Source: Pseudomonadota bacterium
GTDB taxonomy: Bacteria > Bdellovibrionota > UBA1018 > CAIMNF01
Assembly: GCA_027491115.1 (NCBI GenBank)
Contig: JAIXWV010000028.1
Location: 51,857-115,856, forward strand
Direction: 5' to 3'
DNA: 64,000 nucleotides
Part shown: one piece after another, positions 20,638 through 52,195 of the stretch
Numbering within the stretch: the first letter of the stretch is position 1
Layout: each line of letters starts with the position of its first letter
The notes under the pieces: model-generated
Told to the model about the DNA's origin: nothing
Databases searched by the model: none
The model's input: only the letters and a program-made list of their open reading frames with translations
Translations under genes and position numbers: made by a program

Positions 20638-21049
20638 AAAAGCGCAGGTCTGGATTGCCCGAAAAGGCCCCTCCGGAGTGAGTGTTCTGCTGTTCCGGGT
20701 CCGGGAAGAGCGGGGTGGGGGCTGGCATCCTGTCACCGGTGGAGTGGATCCCGAGGAGACTTTTCTCGAGGGGGCCAAGCGCGAGCTCGCTGAAGAGACC
20801 GGATTCGATCCGAAACGTGGAGTCTGGTTCGACCTCGAACTCGAACTGAAGTTCGAAAGCAGGTTCGGACCAGCAAAGGAGCGGGCGTTCGGGTTTCGAT
20901 TGGAAGCGCCCGGAGCGGAGCCGGTGCTCGATCCAGGAGAGCATTTGGAAAGCCGCTGGGAATCGATTGATCAGGCGCTTGTGATGGTGGCTTTTGAATT
21001 TCAACGGGATGCGCTCCGGCGTTTTTCGTGTTACCTTGGGGAGTCATGA
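20621..21049 (+). CDS. NUDIX hydrolase
   Basis: Nudix box GGVDPEETFLEGAKRELAEETGF; TTG start overlapping the MFS gene. Confidence 0.88.
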   Translation: MSNRSRKAQVWIARKGPSGVSVLLFRVREERGGGWHPVTGGVDPEETFLEGAKRELAEETGFDPKRGVWFDLELELKFESRFGPAKERAFGFRLEAPGAEPVLDPGEHLESRWESIDQALVMVAFEFQRDALRRFSCYLGES

Positions 21050-23493
21050 GTGCGCGTTCTGCCTGGGATGATCTCGATTGGCCGAAGTTCCTGAATTGGA
21101 CCGCCGAAGAGGCGCGAACTCCTTACGGGAAGCAGAGGATTTTCTCGCTCTTGGAGCCTACTGCATTCGCGCAGTCTCTCGAACGGGCTAGAGAGCTTCA
21201 GTCTGAGACCCAAGAGGTGTCAGCCTTGCTCGAGAAGTCGGCACTCTGGGGACCCTTGAATGGTCTCGAAGAGATCGATGATGCACTCGAAACACTTGAA
21301 AAAGGGGGAGTGCTCGAACCCGCTGCCCTGGCCCGGATCCGCTCCTGGTTGTACGTCTTCGATTCCTGGAGCCATTTCCCTACCGAAAGTGCCGGACGGC
21401 TTTTTCGAGAGGCTCTTGCCACACTTCTCGATCCCCATGAGTGCCTGCGCATTCTCGATCGCGTCCTCACTCCTTCTGGAGAGTTGTCCGAGAAGGCTTC
21501 GGCCGCTCTGGCATCCTTGCATGCGCAGGCGCGTGAAGTCCGTCGGGAGATCGGAATCCGGATGGAGTCTCTTCTTCGGGATTACTCGCAAAAAGGGCTC
21601 CTCCAAGAACGATTTTCAGATGTGCGCGACGGGCGCTATGTGCTCCCGGTGAAAGTCTCCGACCAAAACAAGGTCGAGGGGCGAGTCACCGAGCTCTCTG
21701 TCAGCAAACAAACCGTATTCATCGAGCCCAAGGAAGTCGAGCAACTCCAGGCCCGCTTGCGCAGGTTGGAAGCAGACATCGCTCAAGAGATGTTTGCCAT
21801 CCTCCTCGAGGTGTCTCGACAACTCCGCCCTTTCGGTGATGCCATCGGGGCCTCCATGATCCGTGTCGGTTATTGGGATGCGGTTCAGGCCCGGGCGCGG
21901 ATCGCAAAGGTGTACGGTGGAAAGACGCTCTCATTGAGTCCGGAGCGTGAGTGGCTACTCCAGGACACCGCTAATCCGGTGCTGTTCTGGAATCTCGAGG
22001 AGTCGGCGATTGTCCGGAACTCGATCGAGCTCGGTAAAGGGCAGCAGATGATCCTCCTGTCCGGGCCCAATACCGGCGGGAAAACCGTTCTATTGAAATT
22101 GATGGGTCTTTCCGCAATCTGTGCCCGCTGCGGGTTTTTCTTTCCGGGGACAGGGAAGCTCACGGTGCCCTATTTCGATTCTTTTTTCATCGATCTCGGA
22201 GATCCGCAATCGATCGAAGATCAGATTTCGTCATTCTCGGGTCATGTGCTCAAGATGAAGCGCATTCTTGAGGGACTGGGTCCCCGTTGTTTGATTCTGA
22301 TCGACGAAATGAACTCTGCCACCGATCCCGAAGAGGGTGCGGCGCTGGCCATGGCGTTCATCGAAACCGTTCTCGAAACCGAGGGTGCGATCCTGGTAGC
22401 CACCACTCACGACCCGAAACTGAAGGCCATGGGTGTGGGCGACAGGCGGATCATGAGTGCCAGCATCGTGTTCGATGAAGCGACCCTCAAGCCCACTTAC
22501 CGGGTCGTCTTTGGGGCTCCGGGAAGGTCTCGCGCTCTCGAAACCGCAGCGAGGCTCGGTCTTCCAGCTTCAGTACTCGAGCGTGCCAGGTCCCATCTGA
22601 CCGATGAGCACAAGGTGGTCGAGACCGTGCTCCAGAAGTTGCAGTCCCAGCTCGGAGCCGTGGAGCGCGCCGAGCGGGAGGCGCAGCATCTCCGGGACGA
22701 GGCAGAGCGGATGCGAGCCGAGTGGGAGGAAAAGGTCACGGTCACGGTCCAGGAGTCGCTCGAAAAAGCCCGTCAGAAGTTGAAGCACGTGCTCGAGTTG
22801 GCCCAGATCGAGGTTCGAGAGACCATCAAAAAGATCCAGTCCACCAAGTCGCACAAGCAATTGGACGAGATCCGTCGCGAGTTGAACGACGTGTTCGAGC
22901 AGGGTGAGAAGCGGATCGGCACTTCCGTGACCGAGGCGGCGCCCGAGCTCAGTGAGGCTTTCGGAGAAGAGGTGAATCCCCCTCTCGAAACTCCTCGATT
23001 TGAACAAGGCGTGTGGGTGCGGGTTCCGAAGTGGAAGAACGTGGGCGAAATCATCGAGTGGGACGGTAAACGTGCAAAAGTGGCACTGGGTGCCCAACAG
23101 GCGGCCACCGGAATGGGGAAAGCCTTTGTCGTGACCGTCTACCCGGTTGAGATGGAGCCGCTCTCGGAGCGTGAGTTGAAGACGGTGCTGGGTGTCCGGG
23201 GCGGAGTCGGGCAGCAGCGGTCGACGAAGGTGACCGTTCAGTCAGAAAGCGTGGGGCCCGTTTCCGATCAGATCGATCTCAGAGGGCAGCGACTGGAAGA
23301 TGCGGTCCGGGAAGCGGGGTCGTATCTGGATCGTGCTTTCCGCTCAGGTAAGAACGAGGTCACCATCGTTCACGGTCTTGGGACGGGGGCTCTCCGCGAG
23401 GGGATCCGGAGCTTACTGAAAAAGACCAATTACGTGGCCCAGTTCCAGGATGCGGGCTCCAGCGGCGCCACGCTGGTTCGATTTTCAGTCTGA
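21046..23493 (+). CDS. mutS2: Endonuclease MutS2 (MutS ATPase plus Smr domain)
   Basis: SGPNTGGKTVLLKLMGL Walker A, LILIDEMNSATDPEEGAAL, C-terminal Smr DLRGQRLEDAVREAGSYLD...VTIVHGLGTGALREGIRSLL. Confidence 0.95.
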   Translation: MSARSAWDDLDWPKFLNWTAEEARTPYGKQRIFSLLEPTAFAQSLERARELQSETQEVSALLEKSALWGPLNGLEEIDDALETLEKGGVLEPAALARIRSWLYVFDSWSHFPTESAGRLFREALATLLDPHECLRILDRVLTPSGELSEKASAALASLHAQAREVRREIGIRMESLLRDYSQKGLLQERFSDVRDGRYVLPVKVSDQNKVEGRVTELSVSKQTVFIEPKEVEQLQARLRRLEADIAQEMFAILLEVSRQLRPFGDAIGASMIRVGYWDAVQARARIAKVYGGKTLSLSPEREWLLQDTANPVLFWNLEESAIVRNSIELGKGQQMILLSGPNTGGKTVLLKLMGLSAICARCGFFFPGTGKLTVPYFDSFFIDLGDPQSIEDQISSFSGHVLKMKRILEGLGPRCLILIDEMNSATDPEEGAALAMAFIETVLETEGAILVATTHDPKLKAMGVGDRRIMSASIVFDEATLKPTYRVVFGAPGRSRALETAARLGLPASVLERARSHLTDEHKVVETVLQKLQSQLGAVERAEREAQHLRDEAERMRAEWEEKVTVTVQESLEKARQKLKHVLELAQIEVRETIKKIQSTKSHKQLDEIRRELNDVFEQGEKRIGTSVTEAAPELSEAFGEEVNPPLETPRFEQGVWVRVPKWKNVGEIIEWDGKRAKVALGAQQAATGMGKAFVVTVYPVEMEPLSERELKTVLGVRGGVGQQRSTKVTVQSESVGPVSDQIDLRGQRLEDAVREAGSYLDRAFRSGKNEVTIVHGLGTGALREGIRSLLKKTNYVAQFQDAGSSGATLVRFSV

Positions 23494-23570: not shown

Positions 23571-24092
23571 ATGAGCGAGCATGATCTGATTCGGATCTTC
23601 ACAGAATGGAATCTTCGTTCTTTTTCGGGGGAGCTTCCCGTTCCTGAAATCCGTTGGAATTCCCGACTCAAGACTTCTGCCGGAAGGTTCATTCCAGACC
23701 GGACCCGCTCCATCATCGAAGTGGCGACCTACCTTTGCGAAGAACCCAATGCCGAGCACTTGATCCGCGATACGATCGGGCACGAGATGATCCATTTTTG
23801 GCTCTGGGAACGTCGCATGCCCTACGGACACACTCCTGAGTTCCACCGCAAGATGGAAGAAATCGGGGTGAGCCGGTACAACAGCGTGCCCAGGCACAGG
23901 CCGTTCAAATACTGTTATGCTTGTCCGTCTTGCGATCAGAAGATCCTGACCCGCAAGCGAATCCGCAAGGCGGCTTGTGCGAAATGCTGCAATGCCCACA
24001 ATGACGGAGAGTTCCATTCCCGCTTTCAGCTCAAATTGGTGGCCGTGGGGGAACAAGTCGGGCAGGTCCCGAGTCGGGAACGGGTCGGTTGA
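23571..24092 (+). CDS. SprT-like metalloprotease-domain protein
   Basis: HEMIHFWLW zinc motif, GHTPEFHRKM, C-terminal zinc-ribbon Cys. Confidence 0.88.
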   Translation: MSEHDLIRIFTEWNLRSFSGELPVPEIRWNSRLKTSAGRFIPDRTRSIIEVATYLCEEPNAEHLIRDTIGHEMIHFWLWERRMPYGHTPEFHRKMEEIGVSRYNSVPRHRPFKYCYACPSCDQKILTRKRIRKAACAKCCNAHNDGEFHSRFQLKLVAVGEQVGQVPSRERVG

Positions 24093-26551: not shown

Positions 26552-27598
26552 ATGAAAAGGGGCATTCGTTCCGCATGGGCTCTTTTGGGGCTCCTTGTTA
26601 CTTTTTCCGCTATCGGGGCCGATGCTCCGATCGGGAAAGTGGTGAGCATGCAAGGCAAGGTCGTTGCCCGCGTCGAGGGCACCATTGCCGGTCTGGCTCG
26701 CCTTCGTTACCTCAAGTCCGGTGACTCCGTTTACAGAAAAGATTTGATCAACACCTCGAGCGACGGGAGCGTCAAAATTCTGTTCAATGACGAGTCCATT
26801 ATGGATGTCGGTCCAAGCTCTTTGTTCAAGGTTGCTCAATTCGATTCAGCAGCCAACTCCAAGGACCGTCGTGTCGAAATGGGACTGGAGTACGGAAAGG
26901 TCCGTGCTTCCATCAACCAGAAAGTCGGTCCCCGTGGAAGGTTCCTGTTGAGGACCCGCGCCGCAACCATGGGTGTTCGGGGAACTGAATTTTACGTGAT
27001 GAGCGACATTCTCGGAGCTCCAGGAGGCCAACCGGATCCGGAGCAACCGAGATCGGAGCCCGTCAAGACCCAGGTGGTGGTCACCGAAGGAAAGGTCGAG
27101 GTCGCCAAAACAGTACCTCCTTCTGCCGGACCGAAGGAACGTGAGGCGGCGAAGCCCGTCGAAGTGAATCCCGGAGAAAAAATAACCGCAGTGGTCGAAA
27201 CCGCTCCACAAAAGAAGGGTGAAGCAACCCTGAGTCCGCCAGAGGTGCGCGAGCCACCCAAGGTGGAGAAGATCACTCCTGAAGAGATCAAGACGGTCGA
27301 GGCCGAGGTGAAGTTGAAGGACACGACTTTTGCCAAGGCGATCGTGGTGGAACCCGAAGCCGAACCGGGTCAGGCGGGATTGCCTCAGGTGCAAGGGGGG
27401 CGGGGTCCTGAAGTCGGGGGCGAAACCCTCGCTGCGATCCAAGAAATGATGGCCAAGAACCCGGGCAATATCGAAGTGCCGAAGGCCGGAGAGCTCGGAA
27501 TTCCAGGATCCTTTCAGGCGCAACCCGGGTTCAATGGCAACTTTCTTCCTGGGTTCAATCGTCCGATGGCGAAGTTGAAGGTCATCTTCAATCGATGA
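26552..27598 (+). CDS. FecR-domain periplasmic protein
   Basis: Signal peptide; GKVVSMQGKVVARV...SGDSVYRKDLINTSSDGSVKILFNDESIMDVGPSSLF and RTRAATMGVRGTEFYV. Confidence 0.85.
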   Translation: MKRGIRSAWALLGLLVTFSAIGADAPIGKVVSMQGKVVARVEGTIAGLARLRYLKSGDSVYRKDLINTSSDGSVKILFNDESIMDVGPSSLFKVAQFDSAANSKDRRVEMGLEYGKVRASINQKVGPRGRFLLRTRAATMGVRGTEFYVMSDILGAPGGQPDPEQPRSEPVKTQVVVTEGKVEVAKTVPPSAGPKEREAAKPVEVNPGEKITAVVETAPQKKGEATLSPPEVREPPKVEKITPEEIKTVEAEVKLKDTTFAKAIVVEPEAEPGQAGLPQVQGGRGPEVGGETLAAIQEMMAKNPGNIEVPKAGELGIPGSFQAQPGFNGNFLPGFNRPMAKLKVIFNR

Positions 27599-27615
27599 GT
27601 GGGGATCAGGGGATC

Positions 27616-30576
27616 ATGAGAACGGGGACCATTTTGAAACTACTGATGACAGTGATCCTGACGGCCGCATCGCTGTCGGCCTGTTCTCTCGATCAACGTG
27701 GGCAAGACGGTCTTGTGCGAATTCAACTCAACACGCGTGCTCATTCGGGTGGGCCATCGCGTCTTGGAACCCTGACAGGTGGCGGAATGACCGCACCGAC
27801 TGCAAATTCTTTCTATGTGATCGATGTGGAGGGAGAGGGAATCCCTCGGCAAATCATCGAACCCAGCAAATGTGTAAAGGCGAGTCCGACCAGCAGTGCG
27901 ATGGTTCCGGCTTTGCTTCAACCCGGTGAGGCGGAGCGGACCGAGCTCGAGTTGTTGGTTCCGGTCGGGGCCAATCGAAAAGTGAAGATCGTCCGGGTCG
28001 ATTTAAATATTCCCGCCGGATCTTCGAGCCCTCAGTTCGGAGAGAGTCCGTTCCGGTTCAAAATGAGGAATCCGGGCTATTCAGTTTCCGGAGATATGTT
28101 CGTTCTCGCTGAGGCCACCATACCTTTTTTGAACGGCGATCAGAGTGTGACCTTGATCGAAAAAGCGGTTCCCGAAGCGATTCCGAACTTGTGTCAGGCC
28201 CAAGGAAACAATCAACCCCCGATCGCCAATGCCGATGTGGAGTTGCTCAAGTACGAGCCGTGGGAAGGGTTGGGACCGAACGGGCAAATCAATCCTTATC
28301 GGGCCTGGAACAACACACCCCATTACCTAATGGTCAGAGGAGAGGTGAAGAACAAAGGGGCTTCTCCGCTCGGATTTCCAGCCTGGCCAAATCCTTCTTC
28401 CACTCCTTCTGCCACGCTTGATGGACTCGGTATTGGATGGCCTAATGGTTATTTCTCGCGGCAGACATTGAATTCTCAAGAGAGCGGGTTCTATCAGTGG
28501 GTATTCCCGAACTATTCTCCCGCGCCCACCGGTGCGACCCCATCCCAGGTGCAAATCACCTTACCTTACAGCGGTGGGTCATCGCCCTCGATCGTGCATT
28601 CCTTTCCCTGGGTCATGCACAGTACGCCGGCCCCCATCTCGAATCCTGTGGTTTCCCAGGTCGCGGGCTATGCCAACCTTTACAAAGCCCGCTTGGATTT
28701 CACCCGGAATGGAAGTGTCATTCCAGTGAGGCCCTATGGATCGTTGTATTCCGCCGTCAACACACAGTACGATCTTTCGCCATTCGAGGCCCGGGGGACC
28801 TTGGACAGCTTTGCGCCTGATTCGGGCGCAACCGCCCTGGCGTTGAATTCAGATGAAACGATCATTTTTGTCGCAACTCCGGGCAAGTTCGTGAAGCGGT
28901 ACAACATCACTCAGGCTCCGCCTGCGGCTCCTGTGAGCAGCGTCACGCTTGTGAATGCAGCTACCGCACTTCAAGTGGTGGGGACGAAGGTTCTCATTGC
29001 GGATCAGACCCAGTTTATTCGTGCGTTTGACTATACATTAGCTAGCCCCACTCCCGTGCCGGTGTATGACGGAGGGACGGGAGCGGCCTTCAAGGGAATG
29101 GTTTTGGACTCGGCAGGCGGACTGGTTCTATCTGATTCTGCCAGGCATGTTCTCCTTCGATTGACTCCGACTCAGCTCAATTCGGCGCTGGGTGGAACCG
29201 CACCGGCGCCGGGAAGTGCCACCCTGCTCGCTGGTGAGGTCGGTACGATGGGTAATGTCGACGGACCACTCCTCCCGACTGCCCGATTCAAGAACCCAGG
29301 AGCCATGGCTCGGGATGCATCGGGGAATATTTTGTTGGTGGATGGGGGGAACATGTCCATCCGACGGGTCGTCGTGGGCGGATCTGTCACCACCTTGCCG
29401 TCACCGGTGGCAGCTTTCGCATACGGTAACCCTTCTCAAATTGCGATGAGGGGAGATTCGGTACTGGTTTCCGATTCGAGCCGTCACGTCGTCTACCGGA
29501 TTCCTCCTTCAGGTTCACCTGAAATTTTGGTCGGGAAATACGGGAGTAATGCCGGAAGTGCGACAAGTGGACTCTTACTTGAAGATTCAGCTCAGTCGTC
29601 ACCGAGTGCCCTGGCAACGGGTGCTTCGGGCTCGATCTACATCGGAGACTCCAACAAGGTGAGACGGGCCATGGCTCCTTGTCCGGTTCAAAAGGATATG
29701 GGTGGAGTACCTCCTCGTCCTTTCAACGCAGGAAAAGGCTGCGAGTTTTTTTATCGGGTCTACAACGGAAGTGCATTCGCTCCAGCCAATCACCCCATCA
29801 TGAAGATTGGCTTGAGAGATGGCTCAGGACTTGAAGGATATTATACGCCCCAATTGTCTTTGGCCGGGCACACCTATCCGTCTGGATATGTGGGTGAAGG
29901 AAATGATTTGGTTTACAACCCGACTTTGGCTTCGGCTCTGACGGTGACCCAAGCGGATGTGACCGCCCCGGGAGGCTGGATCCTGCCATCGATGACAGGA
30001 AACACCGTAACCATCGAAGGAGTGTCGATCCGTTCGGATTCGGGAACTTCCACGAATGTCGGGATGGTGACTTTGTCATCTGGGACCCTGGAGCTTTCAT
30101 CCCGCATGGTCAATGGTGCTCCGATTCGGGAATTGGAAATTCTGGTGAAAGCAGTCCCGACCGCAGGTGGGTCGATCGCTTTCTACAAGCAAAGGTTTTC
30201 ATTCGTGCCAGTCATTCCGGCGAATGCGACCTCAAGGCTTTCCATCGGTATCGGTCAGGTCGCTGAAGGGTTCCAGGTCAGTACTTCTTGTGCTTCGTGG
30301 CAGATCCAAGCCTACTATCAGGGCCGGTCCTTGCCTGTGGCATCAGGAAGTCTTGCGAATTTTGGTGTGAACACGTACTCGGCCACCCCGGCAGGGGTGA
30401 TTTCTTTCACTCCGGCGACCGTGGGAACTCTTTCCATCACGAATGCAGTGGCGAAATACAAGAGTCTCGATGGAGATGTGGGAGCTCCCGCCGCCTCATG
30501 GAGTGGTACGGTGGTCTCTTCCTTGACTTGCTCCCTGAATGCCGTAGCTGGAGCCGTCAACAACGTCGCGAACTGA
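27616..30576 (+). CDS. Large lipoprotein with NHL/beta-propeller-like repeats
   Basis: Lipobox ASLSAC; repeated GNVDGPLLPTARFKNPGAMARDASGNILLVDGGNMSIRRV-type blocks. Confidence 0.75.
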   Translation: MRTGTILKLLMTVILTAASLSACSLDQRGQDGLVRIQLNTRAHSGGPSRLGTLTGGGMTAPTANSFYVIDVEGEGIPRQIIEPSKCVKASPTSSAMVPALLQPGEAERTELELLVPVGANRKVKIVRVDLNIPAGSSSPQFGESPFRFKMRNPGYSVSGDMFVLAEATIPFLNGDQSVTLIEKAVPEAIPNLCQAQGNNQPPIANADVELLKYEPWEGLGPNGQINPYRAWNNTPHYLMVRGEVKNKGASPLGFPAWPNPSSTPSATLDGLGIGWPNGYFSRQTLNSQESGFYQWVFPNYSPAPTGATPSQVQITLPYSGGSSPSIVHSFPWVMHSTPAPISNPVVSQVAGYANLYKARLDFTRNGSVIPVRPYGSLYSAVNTQYDLSPFEARGTLDSFAPDSGATALALNSDETIIFVATPGKFVKRYNITQAPPAAPVSSVTLVNAATALQVVGTKVLIADQTQFIRAFDYTLASPTPVPVYDGGTGAAFKGMVLDSAGGLVLSDSARHVLLRLTPTQLNSALGGTAPAPGSATLLAGEVGTMGNVDGPLLPTARFKNPGAMARDASGNILLVDGGNMSIRRVVVGGSVTTLPSPVAAFAYGNPSQIAMRGDSVLVSDSSRHVVYRIPPSGSPEILVGKYGSNAGSATSGLLLEDSAQSSPSALATGASGSIYIGDSNKVRRAMAPCPVQKDMGGVPPRPFNAGKGCEFFYRVYNGSAFAPANHPIMKIGLRDGSGLEGYYTPQLSLAGHTYPSGYVGEGNDLVYNPTLASALTVTQADVTAPGGWILPSMTGNTVTIEGVSIRSDSGTSTNVGMVTLSSGTLELSSRMVNGAPIRELEILVKAVPTAGGSIAFYKQRFSFVPVIPANATSRLSIGIGQVAEGFQVSTSCASWQIQAYYQGRSLPVASGSLANFGVNTYSATPAGVISFTPATVGTLSITNAVAKYKSLDGDVGAPAASWSGTVVSSLTCSLNAVAGAVNNVAN

Positions 30577-30597: not shown

Positions 30598-31443
30598 TCA
30601 GTGCATGAGCCCGTGAATCTTGAGCTTCTCGAGCAGGGTCACGCGCTCCATACGTGCGGCGCGTGCGGTCTTGTCGAGATCGTGATTGAAGCTCTTGAGC
30701 AGTTCCGAGAGGTAGATCTTTTCGAATTCGGAGCGCGTAGCTTGGAAATTGATCTTGTCGTGTCCGAAATCAGGTAGATCCCGGAGTTCGATCCGCTCGG
30801 AATCGCAGGACACGGCCGCCATGCGGAGGACGTTCCGGAGCTCACGGAGGTTGCCGGGCCAGTCGTAATCGCGGAGCTTGCGCCAAGCGGTTTCGGAGTA
30901 GCCCTTGATGTGCTCTTTGTGAAGCTCCTGGGTGATCTCTTGGAGGATCCCCATGGCGATGTCTTCGAACTCGTCTTCACGCTCAGCGAGGTTCGGCATT
31001 TCGATGCGGTTCTTCGAGAGACGCAAGAGAAGTTCATCATTGAACATGCCGGCGCGGGCACGGGAATCGATCTGCGGAACCGCGGTCGCAATGATCCGGA
31101 CATTGGCGATCATCGGAACGTTCACGCCTTTGTCCGATTGGGAGACCGCACGGGTCTTCAGGAAGTTCAGCACCACCAGCTGTTCAGAAACCGGATAGTT
31201 GGCGATGTCGTCGACGATCAGGGTTCCGCCGTTGCAGTCGCGGATTTGCTCGGCGATGGTACGATCCCGTGTAGCCATGATGCAGATCTGGGCGGCGCGA
31301 GGAGAATTCTTGTGAATCCATTTTGCGAGAGCACCTTTACCGGTTCCTGTACCACCGATCACCAGTACGGGTTCATCATCAGATTGGGCGGCCGACAGTG
31401 CGATTTTTCGTTGGGACGAAGGAATGAAATAGACCATGCTCAT
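30598..31443 (-). CDS. Stand-alone NtrC-type AAA+ domain with Fis-type HTH, lacking the GAFTGA loop
   Basis: GGTGTGKGALAKWIH Walker A, GGTLIVDDI Walker B, YDWPGNLRELRNVL, C-terminal HTH. Confidence 0.88.
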   Translation of the reverse strand: MSMVYFIPSSQRKIALSAAQSDDEPVLVIGGTGTGKGALAKWIHKNSPRAAQICIMATRDRTIAEQIRDCNGGTLIVDDIANYPVSEQLVVLNFLKTRAVSQSDKGVNVPMIANVRIIATAVPQIDSRARAGMFNDELLLRLSKNRIEMPNLAEREDEFEDIAMGILQEITQELHKEHIKGYSETAWRKLRDYDWPGNLRELRNVLRMAAVSCDSERIELRDLPDFGHDKINFQATRSEFEKIYLSELLKSFNHDLDKTARAARMERVTLLEKLKIHGLMH

Positions 31444-31557
31444 AGTGTCTTTCGAGTATAGCGGAAATGGGTCGGGTTCACCAAGGGCAATTAGCGTCAG
31501 AAACTTAACGATTTCGGCTTGTTTTCAATGCAGATACACTTGGGTCTCGGAGGTCCT

Positions 31558-32346
31558 ATGAAGACATTTTGGCCGGTGGTGGTGTTCTCGTTCCTGATGG
31601 TCACGGAATCCCACGGTCGTGGATTCGGTGTTCGTGAGGACCTGGTGCAGGTGGCAAACGGGCAAGGTGTTGCGGCACCGAGCTTTCACGGAGCGCTTTT
31701 CGGGCAGAATCCGGCGGGCTTGGTCCAGAACCAACGTCTCAAGATCCAAGGTGGCGTCGCGGCACTGGATGATTCCACGACGAACCTGAAGGGTTCCGGA
31801 GCGGTCCTGGCTGGAAACGGTGTCCTGGGTGCCGGAGTCGGTTATTCCCAGTTCGACTCCGGAGCTTACGCGTCAGGAACCGGTGCCCTTCATTGGGGCG
31901 CCGCAGGAACCCTGCAATCCCTGGCGACCACCCTCGGCATTTCCGGTCGGAGCGTCTCGGGTGCTTCGAGCTATGATGTCGGACTTTTCTTCGATTTCAT
32001 TCCGAGAACCCGCATTGCCGCCCTGGCCAAGGATGTCGGAAATGGCTTGCACCTGGTCGGGGCCGGCCTTCAGTTCATGGTGGATTCCATGGTGGATCTC
32101 GTGATCGATGCGGACTATGAAACCCGCCTCAAACAAGGGGTGGTGAAGCCCGGATTTACCTTGCACACGGATCGGGTCCAATTCACCGCCGCCTATGGCT
32201 TCCGCTATGTCGGAACCACAGACCAGTTCGTCTACTCCAGGATGACAGCCGGAATCGGGATCCGGATCGCCGATTCCATCCTACTCCAGTACCAGTACCG
32301 GAGCTTGCCGCAGCACCTGGTCGGTTTGACTTTGCGCCTGAACTGA
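31558..32346 (+). CDS. Hypothetical exported, outer-membrane-like protein
   Basis: Signal peptide; beta-strand-rich; SFHGALFGQNPAGLVQN. Confidence 0.55.
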   Translation: MKTFWPVVVFSFLMVTESHGRGFGVREDLVQVANGQGVAAPSFHGALFGQNPAGLVQNQRLKIQGGVAALDDSTTNLKGSGAVLAGNGVLGAGVGYSQFDSGAYASGTGALHWGAAGTLQSLATTLGISGRSVSGASSYDVGLFFDFIPRTRIAALAKDVGNGLHLVGAGLQFMVDSMVDLVIDADYETRLKQGVVKPGFTLHTDRVQFTAAYGFRYVGTTDQFVYSRMTAGIGIRIADSILLQYQYRSLPQHLVGLTLRLN

Positions 32347-32363: not shown

Positions 32364-33086
32364 ATGAAAACCCTGACCGAATTCTCAGGATTCGTCCTGA
32401 AAGACGCCGTTGCCAAAAAAGCCGCCCTCCTTGCCGAAGGGAAGACCGAAGAAGAGGCTCAAGCCCAGATTCTCGAGATGCTCAAGCTGGACGAAGCCAA
32501 GGCCGGCTTTTACAAGAACGTGGTCGACATGACCAGTTCGCGGATGGACCGGGTCAAGCGGGTGGTCGTGGCGCTCAAGGCGACCGAGACCGAGAAGGTT
32601 CCGGAGTCCTACACCGAGCGTGAAGGGCATTTTTATCTGATCGAGTATTTTCACTCGGCCGATCAACGCACGAGTTCCGCTCGTTCCGGCGATGACGATC
32701 GTCGTGGGGGCCGCCGTGACGGACGCCGCGACGGACGCTCAGGCGATCGCAAGGGGCGCGGAGATCAGCGTGACGGTGCGGGTCGTCCTCCTCGGGGTGA
32801 TCGCCCGGCCCCTCGCACCGATGCAAAATTCAAAACGGATGGTGTTGCCAGTAAAGAAGCAGGCGCTCCACGTCCGGCCCGCGCACCCAGGCCTCCGCGT
32901 GAGCCCCGGGCTCCACAAGCGCCACGCGCACCTCGCGCTCCCAGAGCTCCCCGCGCTCCACAGGGACCGAAAGGCGCAGGTGAGCTTCGTTTGGTTCTGA
33001 AGGGGCAATCCGAGACCCGTCTTCAGGGTTCGGCGCCGGCGGATGCTCCAGCGGCTCCGGTCACTTCTGAAGCGCCACAGGCATAG
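32364..33086 (+). CDS. Hypothetical protein with Arg/Gly/Asp-rich and PRAP-repeat C-terminal half
   Basis: DRRGGRRDGRRDGRSGDRKGRGDQRDG then PRAPRPPREPRAPQAPRAPRAPRAPRAPQGP. Confidence 0.65.
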   Translation: MKTLTEFSGFVLKDAVAKKAALLAEGKTEEEAQAQILEMLKLDEAKAGFYKNVVDMTSSRMDRVKRVVVALKATETEKVPESYTEREGHFYLIEYFHSADQRTSSARSGDDDRRGGRRDGRRDGRSGDRKGRGDQRDGAGRPPRGDRPAPRTDAKFKTDGVASKEAGAPRPARAPRPPREPRAPQAPRAPRAPRAPRAPQGPKGAGELRLVLKGQSETRLQGSAPADAPAAPVTSEAPQA

Positions 33087-51193: not shown

Positions 51194-52195
51194 ATGAGAA
51201 ACCTTCTTCGAATCCACGCCTTCCTGCCGCTTTGGGCTTTGGCAGTTCTGTCTGTTCCAAGTGCTTCCGCACAGCTCCGGGTCGGGCTGGTCCTCGAACG
51301 CTCCGGGAAGGACGACAAGTCGTTCAACGCATCGGCTTATCAAGGGCTCAAGCGTGCAGAAAAAGAGCTCGGAGTGTCGACAAAGACCGTGGAGGCTCCC
51401 GACAATGCAGCCTATGAGTCCCTTCAGAGAGCATTCGCAGAGAAAAAGTTCGATCTCATCATTGCGGTCGGATTCCATCAGCTGGAGTCGGTGAAGAAGA
51501 ACGCTGCCCGTTTCCCAAACCAGAAGTTCCTTCTGGTCGACGAGGATGCCAAGGCGCCCAATGTCCGCTCCGTCATGTTCGAAGAACATGAAGGAAGTTA
51601 TCTGGTGGGTGCACTGGCCGCCATGCACGCTCCCGGAGGGAAGATCGGGTTTATCGGAGGAATGGATGTTCCACTGATCCGCCGTTTTGAAACTGGATAT
51701 GTGGCCGGAGCGAAAAAAATCAATCCGAAGGTGCAGATGCTATCGAATTATCTCGGTGTCACCGGTGAAGCCTGGAACAATCCTCCGAAAGCCAAAGAGC
51801 TTGCTCTCGATCAGTTCAATCGCGGGGCGGAGGTGATTTTTGTCGCCGCCGGTAACTCGGGTGTGGGGGTATTCGATGCCGCTGCCGATAGAAAGAAGCT
51901 CGCAATCGGTGTCGACTCGAATCAGAACTGGCTCAAGCCCGGCTCCATCCTGACCAGCATGTTGAAGCGGGTGGATGAGGCGGTTTATGACTCGGTCAAG
52001 CTCTTCAAAGAAGGCAAGTTCACCACGGGCTTGATTCGGTACGGGGTGAAATCCAAGGGTGTGGATTATTCGCTCGACGAGCATAACGCGCGACTCGTGA
52101 CCGAGGCCGACAAGAAACAGTTGGAACAACTTCGAACGGAAATCGTTAAGGGCAAGATCAAGGTCCCTGACTATTACCTGATCCAGAAAAAGTGA
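51194..52195 (+). CDS. BMP-family ABC transporter substrate-binding protein
   Basis: RVGLVLERSGKDDKSFNASAYQGL, GAEVIFVAAGNSGVGVFDAA, GVDSNQ. Confidence 0.92.
   Translation: MRNLLRIHAFLPLWALAVLSVPSASAQLRVGLVLERSGKDDKSFNASAYQGLKRAEKELGVSTKTVEAPDNAAYESLQRAFAEKKFDLIIAVGFHQLESVKKNAARFPNQKFLLVDEDAKAPNVRSVMFEEHEGSYLVGALAAMHAPGGKIGFIGGMDVPLIRRFETGYVAGAKKINPKVQMLSNYLGVTGEAWNNPPKAKELALDQFNRGAEVIFVAAGNSGVGVFDAAADRKKLAIGVDSNQNWLKPGSILTSMLKRVDEAVYDSVKLFKEGKFTTGLIRYGVKSKGVDYSLDEHNARLVTEADKKQLEQLRTEIVKGKIKVPDYYLIQKK

Follow-up and report, generated by a model that had tools for sequence, protein, structure and literature searches.

What can a relative of the sigma-54 activators do once it has lost the loop that contacts sigma-54? 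This question is raised by a gene on the reverse strand at positions 30598–31443 of the window (the whole stretch of 64,000 nucleotides analysed here), which encodes a protein of 281 residues (stop codon within the coordinates) that begins MSMVYFIP in the translated reading frame. The protein matches the Pfam models PF14532 (Sigma54_activ_2; 64 bits), PF00158 (61 bits) and AAA_lid_14 (PF25601; 59 bits), all above cutoff, which indicates the AAA+ core and lid of the enhancer-binding protein (EBP) clade. The PF14532 match forms one stretch over profile positions 13–138 of 138, and this broad model picks up the genome's canonical EBPs too, which means that it does not provide a specific assignment. 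The initial annotation, made from the sequence alone, had named four motifs, and each lies where it was placed, on the reverse strand: Walker A (GGTGTGKG, residues 30–37, positions 31333–31356), a Walker B-like region (GGTLIVDDI, residues 72–80, 31204–31230), the arginine-finger region (FNDELLLRL, residues 134–142, 31018–31044, as confirmed by alignment) and the sensor II motif (WPGNLREL, residues 195–202, 30838–30861). Its statement that an N-terminal sensory domain is missing is also borne out, as the AAA core starts at about residue 8, no receiver domain is present and the start MxMVxFIP is conserved. The C-terminal Fis-type helix-turn-helix (HTH; 30616–30678, reverse strand) scores 17.4 bits against HTH_8 in the window protein itself, which is below the 22-bit Pfam cutoff, but the model is matched by 27 of 39 members of the protein family at E≤0.01 (best 1.3e-7), and a predicted structure places helices at residues 256–263 and 267–276, which supports the domain. 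Together, the NtrC-type AAA+ domain and the Fis-type HTH make up the whole of the window protein.

The central claim to be examined was that the GAFTGA segment is absent. From the start of Walker A to the start of the GGT that precedes Walker B, the window protein spans 42 residues, as against 64–66 in canonical EBPs, whether from this genome or from others. An alignment of 43 family members and 16 canonical EBPs identified the missing segment of approximately 23 residues as the ESELFGH..KGAFTGA hairpin, and both the alignment and the structural model place the deletion junction at residues 58–66 (31246–31272, reverse strand). The L1 columns are empty in all 43 family members and occupied in all 16 canonical proteins, which argues that the loss did not arise by chance; no orthologue restores the loop that a functional sigma-54 EBP carries, and the claim survives this check. 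An AlphaFold2 model built from a 31-sequence alignment (mean pLDDT 88, pTM 0.72) features a normal AAA+ core and lid, the C-terminal HTH and no L1 hairpin, with strand 54–56 leading directly into helix 63–69 at the L1 site. Alignment and model agree on an EBP fold from which L1 has been deleted. When the model was compared with the PDB using Foldseek, the nearest folds were NtrX, ZraR, NtrC1 and VpsR, and the best PDB match by sequence was VpsR. An assembly error, a frameshift or a pseudogene would be suggested by the odd sequence taken by itself, and each of these is almost certainly wrong and can be ruled out: the identical deletion occurs in 43 members from independent assemblies and the coding sequence bears the mark of strong purifying selection (dN/dS of 0.02–0.07 for pairs with unsaturated dS).

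The deletion is therefore not the peculiarity of a single odd protein, as the initial annotation had treated it, but a trait of an old, order-wide family, some members of which also lack the DNA-binding domain. Orthologues were found in approximately 46 of the 55 genomes of the order, fragments counted, including all 12 genomes of the genus (the window's own among them) and the sole other genome of the taxonomic family. Searching 369 genomes of the phylum with a family profile returned no member beyond the order, where the best scores of approximately 163 bits belong to longer, canonical EBPs. Identity is 78–97% inside the genus and about 45–54% for most remaining members. The family forms one clade with support of 100/100 against the canonical EBPs, in a tree for which the bootstrap is not fully settled. 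An N-terminal MxxVxFIPxxQRR and other core residues are specific to the family and nearly invariant within it. The window genome comprises 2.55 Mb in 45 contigs, and its nearest named records are metagenome assemblies labelled Bdellovibrionales, Bdellovibrio or Oligoflexia.

Degeneration of the ATPase site goes well beyond what the initial annotation described. Walker A carries its Lys in 40 of the 43 members and an Arg in the other 3, and the sensor II Arg (Arg200 in the window protein) is invariant. The remaining catalytic positions have fared differently: the switch Asn, which is Thr58 in the window protein, is kept in 8/43, arginine finger 2 (Arg141, retained in the window protein) in 15/43, the sensor I Asn or His in 1/43 and arginine finger 1 in none. 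In the window protein, alignment places Val122 at the sensor I position (RIIATAV, residues 116–122, 31078–31098, reverse strand) and Asn135 at finger 1. The reported Walker B of DD in place of DE holds for the window's own taxonomic family, which supplies all 13 of the members with the first Asp; most other members of the order have lost that Asp and kept the Glu, as in GGTLLIPEI, and an acidic residue occupies the second position in 42 of 43. Retention of Walker A and sensor II together with loss of the other catalytic positions suggests that the family still binds nucleotide, with conventional hydrolysis unlikely. The expectation that the protein does not remodel sigma-54 canonically, which follows from the absence of L1 in every member, is reinforced by the loss of finger 1 and sensor I in essentially all members and of the switch Asn and the first Walker B Asp in most. 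Could sigma-54 polymerase still be activated through another surface? The protein is related to EBPs and its host cell has sigma-54, but it lacks L1, arginine finger 1 and sensor I, and GAFTGA mutants in most cases fail to activate transcription (PMC7175178), which makes such activation highly improbable.

GAFTGA-less EBP homologues with other functions are already known. TyrR, DhaR, HupR and VpsR have an absent or defective GAFTGA motif, and the first three are sigma-70 dependent (PMC3162934). The NtrC proteins of Rhodobacter capsulatus and Caulobacter lack GAFTGA and regulate sigma-70 promoters (PMC10274813), and R. capsulatus NtrC relies on ATP binding rather than hydrolysis (PMC3162934); in all, action at sigma-70 promoters has been demonstrated or proposed for several such homologues (PMC3162934, PMC10274813). 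Like the window protein, the two NtrC proteins carry a Fis HTH and an NtrC-type AAA+ domain in which a deletion covers L1. Unlike it, they have a receiver domain and belong to two-component systems, whereas in the window's protein family the losses extend to finger 1, sensor I and, in many members, Walker B. VpsR of Vibrio cholerae, which likewise lacks GAFTGA, differs in that the L1 gap is larger by approximately 18 residues in the window protein according to the alignment, and VpsR has an N-terminal receiver-like domain and binds c-di-GMP. TyrR, DhaR and HupR share the defective GAFTGA, a likeness drawn from published descriptions rather than residue by residue, and carry sensory domains that the window protein does not have. 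EBPs of the PspF and HrpS type match its architecture of AAA+ and HTH with no N-terminal sensory domain, but they keep GAFTGA and activate sigma-54. The type of a GAFTGA-less EBP is thus familiar, and a sensor-less, order-wide family of it is new.

We favour, with moderate confidence, an EBP-derived orphan regulator that has no sensor, has left the sigma-54 pathway and acts like R. capsulatus NtrC, VpsR or TyrR. This reading draws on the pattern of lost and kept residues, the single conserved clade, the purifying selection, the predicted structure and the sigma-70 promoters at which GAFTGA-less EBPs in the literature act. Such a protein would bind ATP without normal hydrolysis, nucleotide binding would set its oligomeric form, and its Fis-type HTH would bind DNA to repress or activate sigma-70-type promoters, on the model of those three regulators. 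With no sensory domain, the protein would take its cue from its own abundance, from the level of ATP or from a partner protein. Several observations weigh against this reading: the six of 43 members without an HTH, which imply that some lineages manage without the protein itself binding DNA, the three members in which Arg replaces the Walker A Lys, the loose tie to the divergent transporter described below, and searches that returned neither an operator nor a regulon.

Outside the window's taxonomic family the gene is usually single and lies divergent from an operon for a BMP-type ABC transporter in 27 of 28 loci, where the 28 are the loci with that operon in reach, as identified from protein sequences; after it come an SprT-like gene, most often oppositely oriented, and then mutS2. 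A gene divergent from an operon is a common layout for a regulator. However, the transporter also occurs in genomes that have no regulator gene, which means that the layout does not prove the transporter to be the target, and we rejected the operon as a target on account of this uncoupling. In the window, a transporter gene lies at approximately 51245–52177, approximately 20 kb from the regulator gene, and mutS2 (21028–23493) and the SprT-like gene (23571–24092) are found past a FecR-domain gene and a gene for an NHL-repeat protein. These two, encoding a FecR-domain protein and a 993-residue NHL-repeat protein, occupy 26552–30576 and separate the regulator gene from the SprT-like/mutS2 block in the genus. 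The divergent neighbour in the window is a gene at approximately 31561–32346, beyond which, at 32364–33086, is encoded a 240-residue protein with a long low-complexity tail rich in Arg, Pro and Ala.

The intergenic region between the regulator gene and this neighbour (31444–31560) is expected to contain the promoter or promoters, and no operator was established within it. The dyad TCGTnAnnTTTCTGACG, present in this interval in part of the genus, was rejected as an operator for want of specificity: scanning the genome with up to 2 mismatches gave 30 matches, compared to 15 for a reversed control, and no clear regulon. A second candidate, TTGAC-N9-GC-N3-GCGTTA, lies 34–110 bp upstream of the gene in approximately 20 members of the order (e.g., G028:C2:108681-108705), and it was discarded as an operator in view of other copies that sit 11–50 bp before unrelated genes; it probably represents a general sigma-70-like promoter class of the order. 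A search of 24 upstream regions for gapped dyads and k-mers recovered nothing but this promoter, and a scan for sigma-54 promoters did not separate the window's taxonomic family from the others.

The HTH-less members, considered above as a difficulty for a regulator of sigma-70-type promoters, may leave room for a function to which DNA binding is not essential. The HTH is absent and the AAA+ core retained in six members (L125, L134, L135, L137, L138 and L142), and the sequence downstream of these six genes showed no vestige of an HTH. Four of them make up one divergent clade, and the tree leaves the placement of the other two unresolved. It is possible, though we think it unlikely, that these EBP descendants form a nucleotide-binding, hydrolysis-dead family whose main role has become independent of DNA binding, such as tuning other AAA+ regulators by serving them as a scaffold or poison subunit, and such a role, if true, would explain why some members have lost the HTH. 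One form of this would be a hydrolysis-dead, L1-less subunit that enters the rings of other EBPs and blunts or tunes sigma-54 activation through hetero-oligomers. The window genome encodes sigma-54 and about a dozen GAFTGA-bearing EBPs, the fold, Walker A and sensor II are retained, and joining a ring would need no DNA binding, which fits the HTH-less members. But the arginine-finger and sensor I positions, which lie at the subunit interface, now carry family-specific residues, and the tree shows a long separation of the family from canonical EBPs, such that mixed rings are not obviously favoured, and no EBP gene is conserved as a neighbour of the regulator gene; we judge this modulator doubtful. 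Alternatively, the protein could be a scaffold or switch that binds nucleotide and for which DNA has ceased to be the main route of action, with the HTH as a remnant or for dimerisation. This would account for the six members with an intact AAA core and no HTH, and the near-invariance of MxxVxFIPxxQRR and of further core residues fits it as well. It appears rather unlikely given that 37 of 43 members keep the C-terminal HTH region, which matches HTH_8 in the proportion given above, and that most of the HTH-less members fall in a single clade.

The favoured orphan regulator is not the only EBP of its genome to lack the loop. Two more short EBPs of the window genome have no GAFTGA: one, in a flagellar operon upstream of fliF, fliG, fliH and fliI (L165:8480-9457, reverse strand, contig C7), and another that adjoins metK (L166:5278-6252, reverse strand, contig C28). 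In relatives, both belong to one conserved block, metK-EBP-...-EBP-fliF-fliG. Neither has L1 in any of the 5 genomes of the window's taxonomic family that were compared. Among the relatives compared from the order, the fliF-side EBP has an intact GAFTGA, and orthologues of the metK-side EBP keep the motif except for a loss in one f4 genome (L217) and a near-GAFTGA variant in one. Since the two flagellar-cluster EBPs lost L1 separately from the window's protein family, comparison of these sequences suggests that the sigma-54 contact loop has been lost repeatedly in this lineage, at least three times.

Annotation by domain name would label proteins of this kind sigma-54 activators, and that label is probably wrong. 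In the family described here, a relative of the sigma-54 activators kept its ATP-binding fold while dropping the contact loop and most of the catalytic parts, and this state became fixed across an order. The family provides a clean natural test of what an AAA+ ring can do with neither ATP hydrolysis nor contact with sigma-54.
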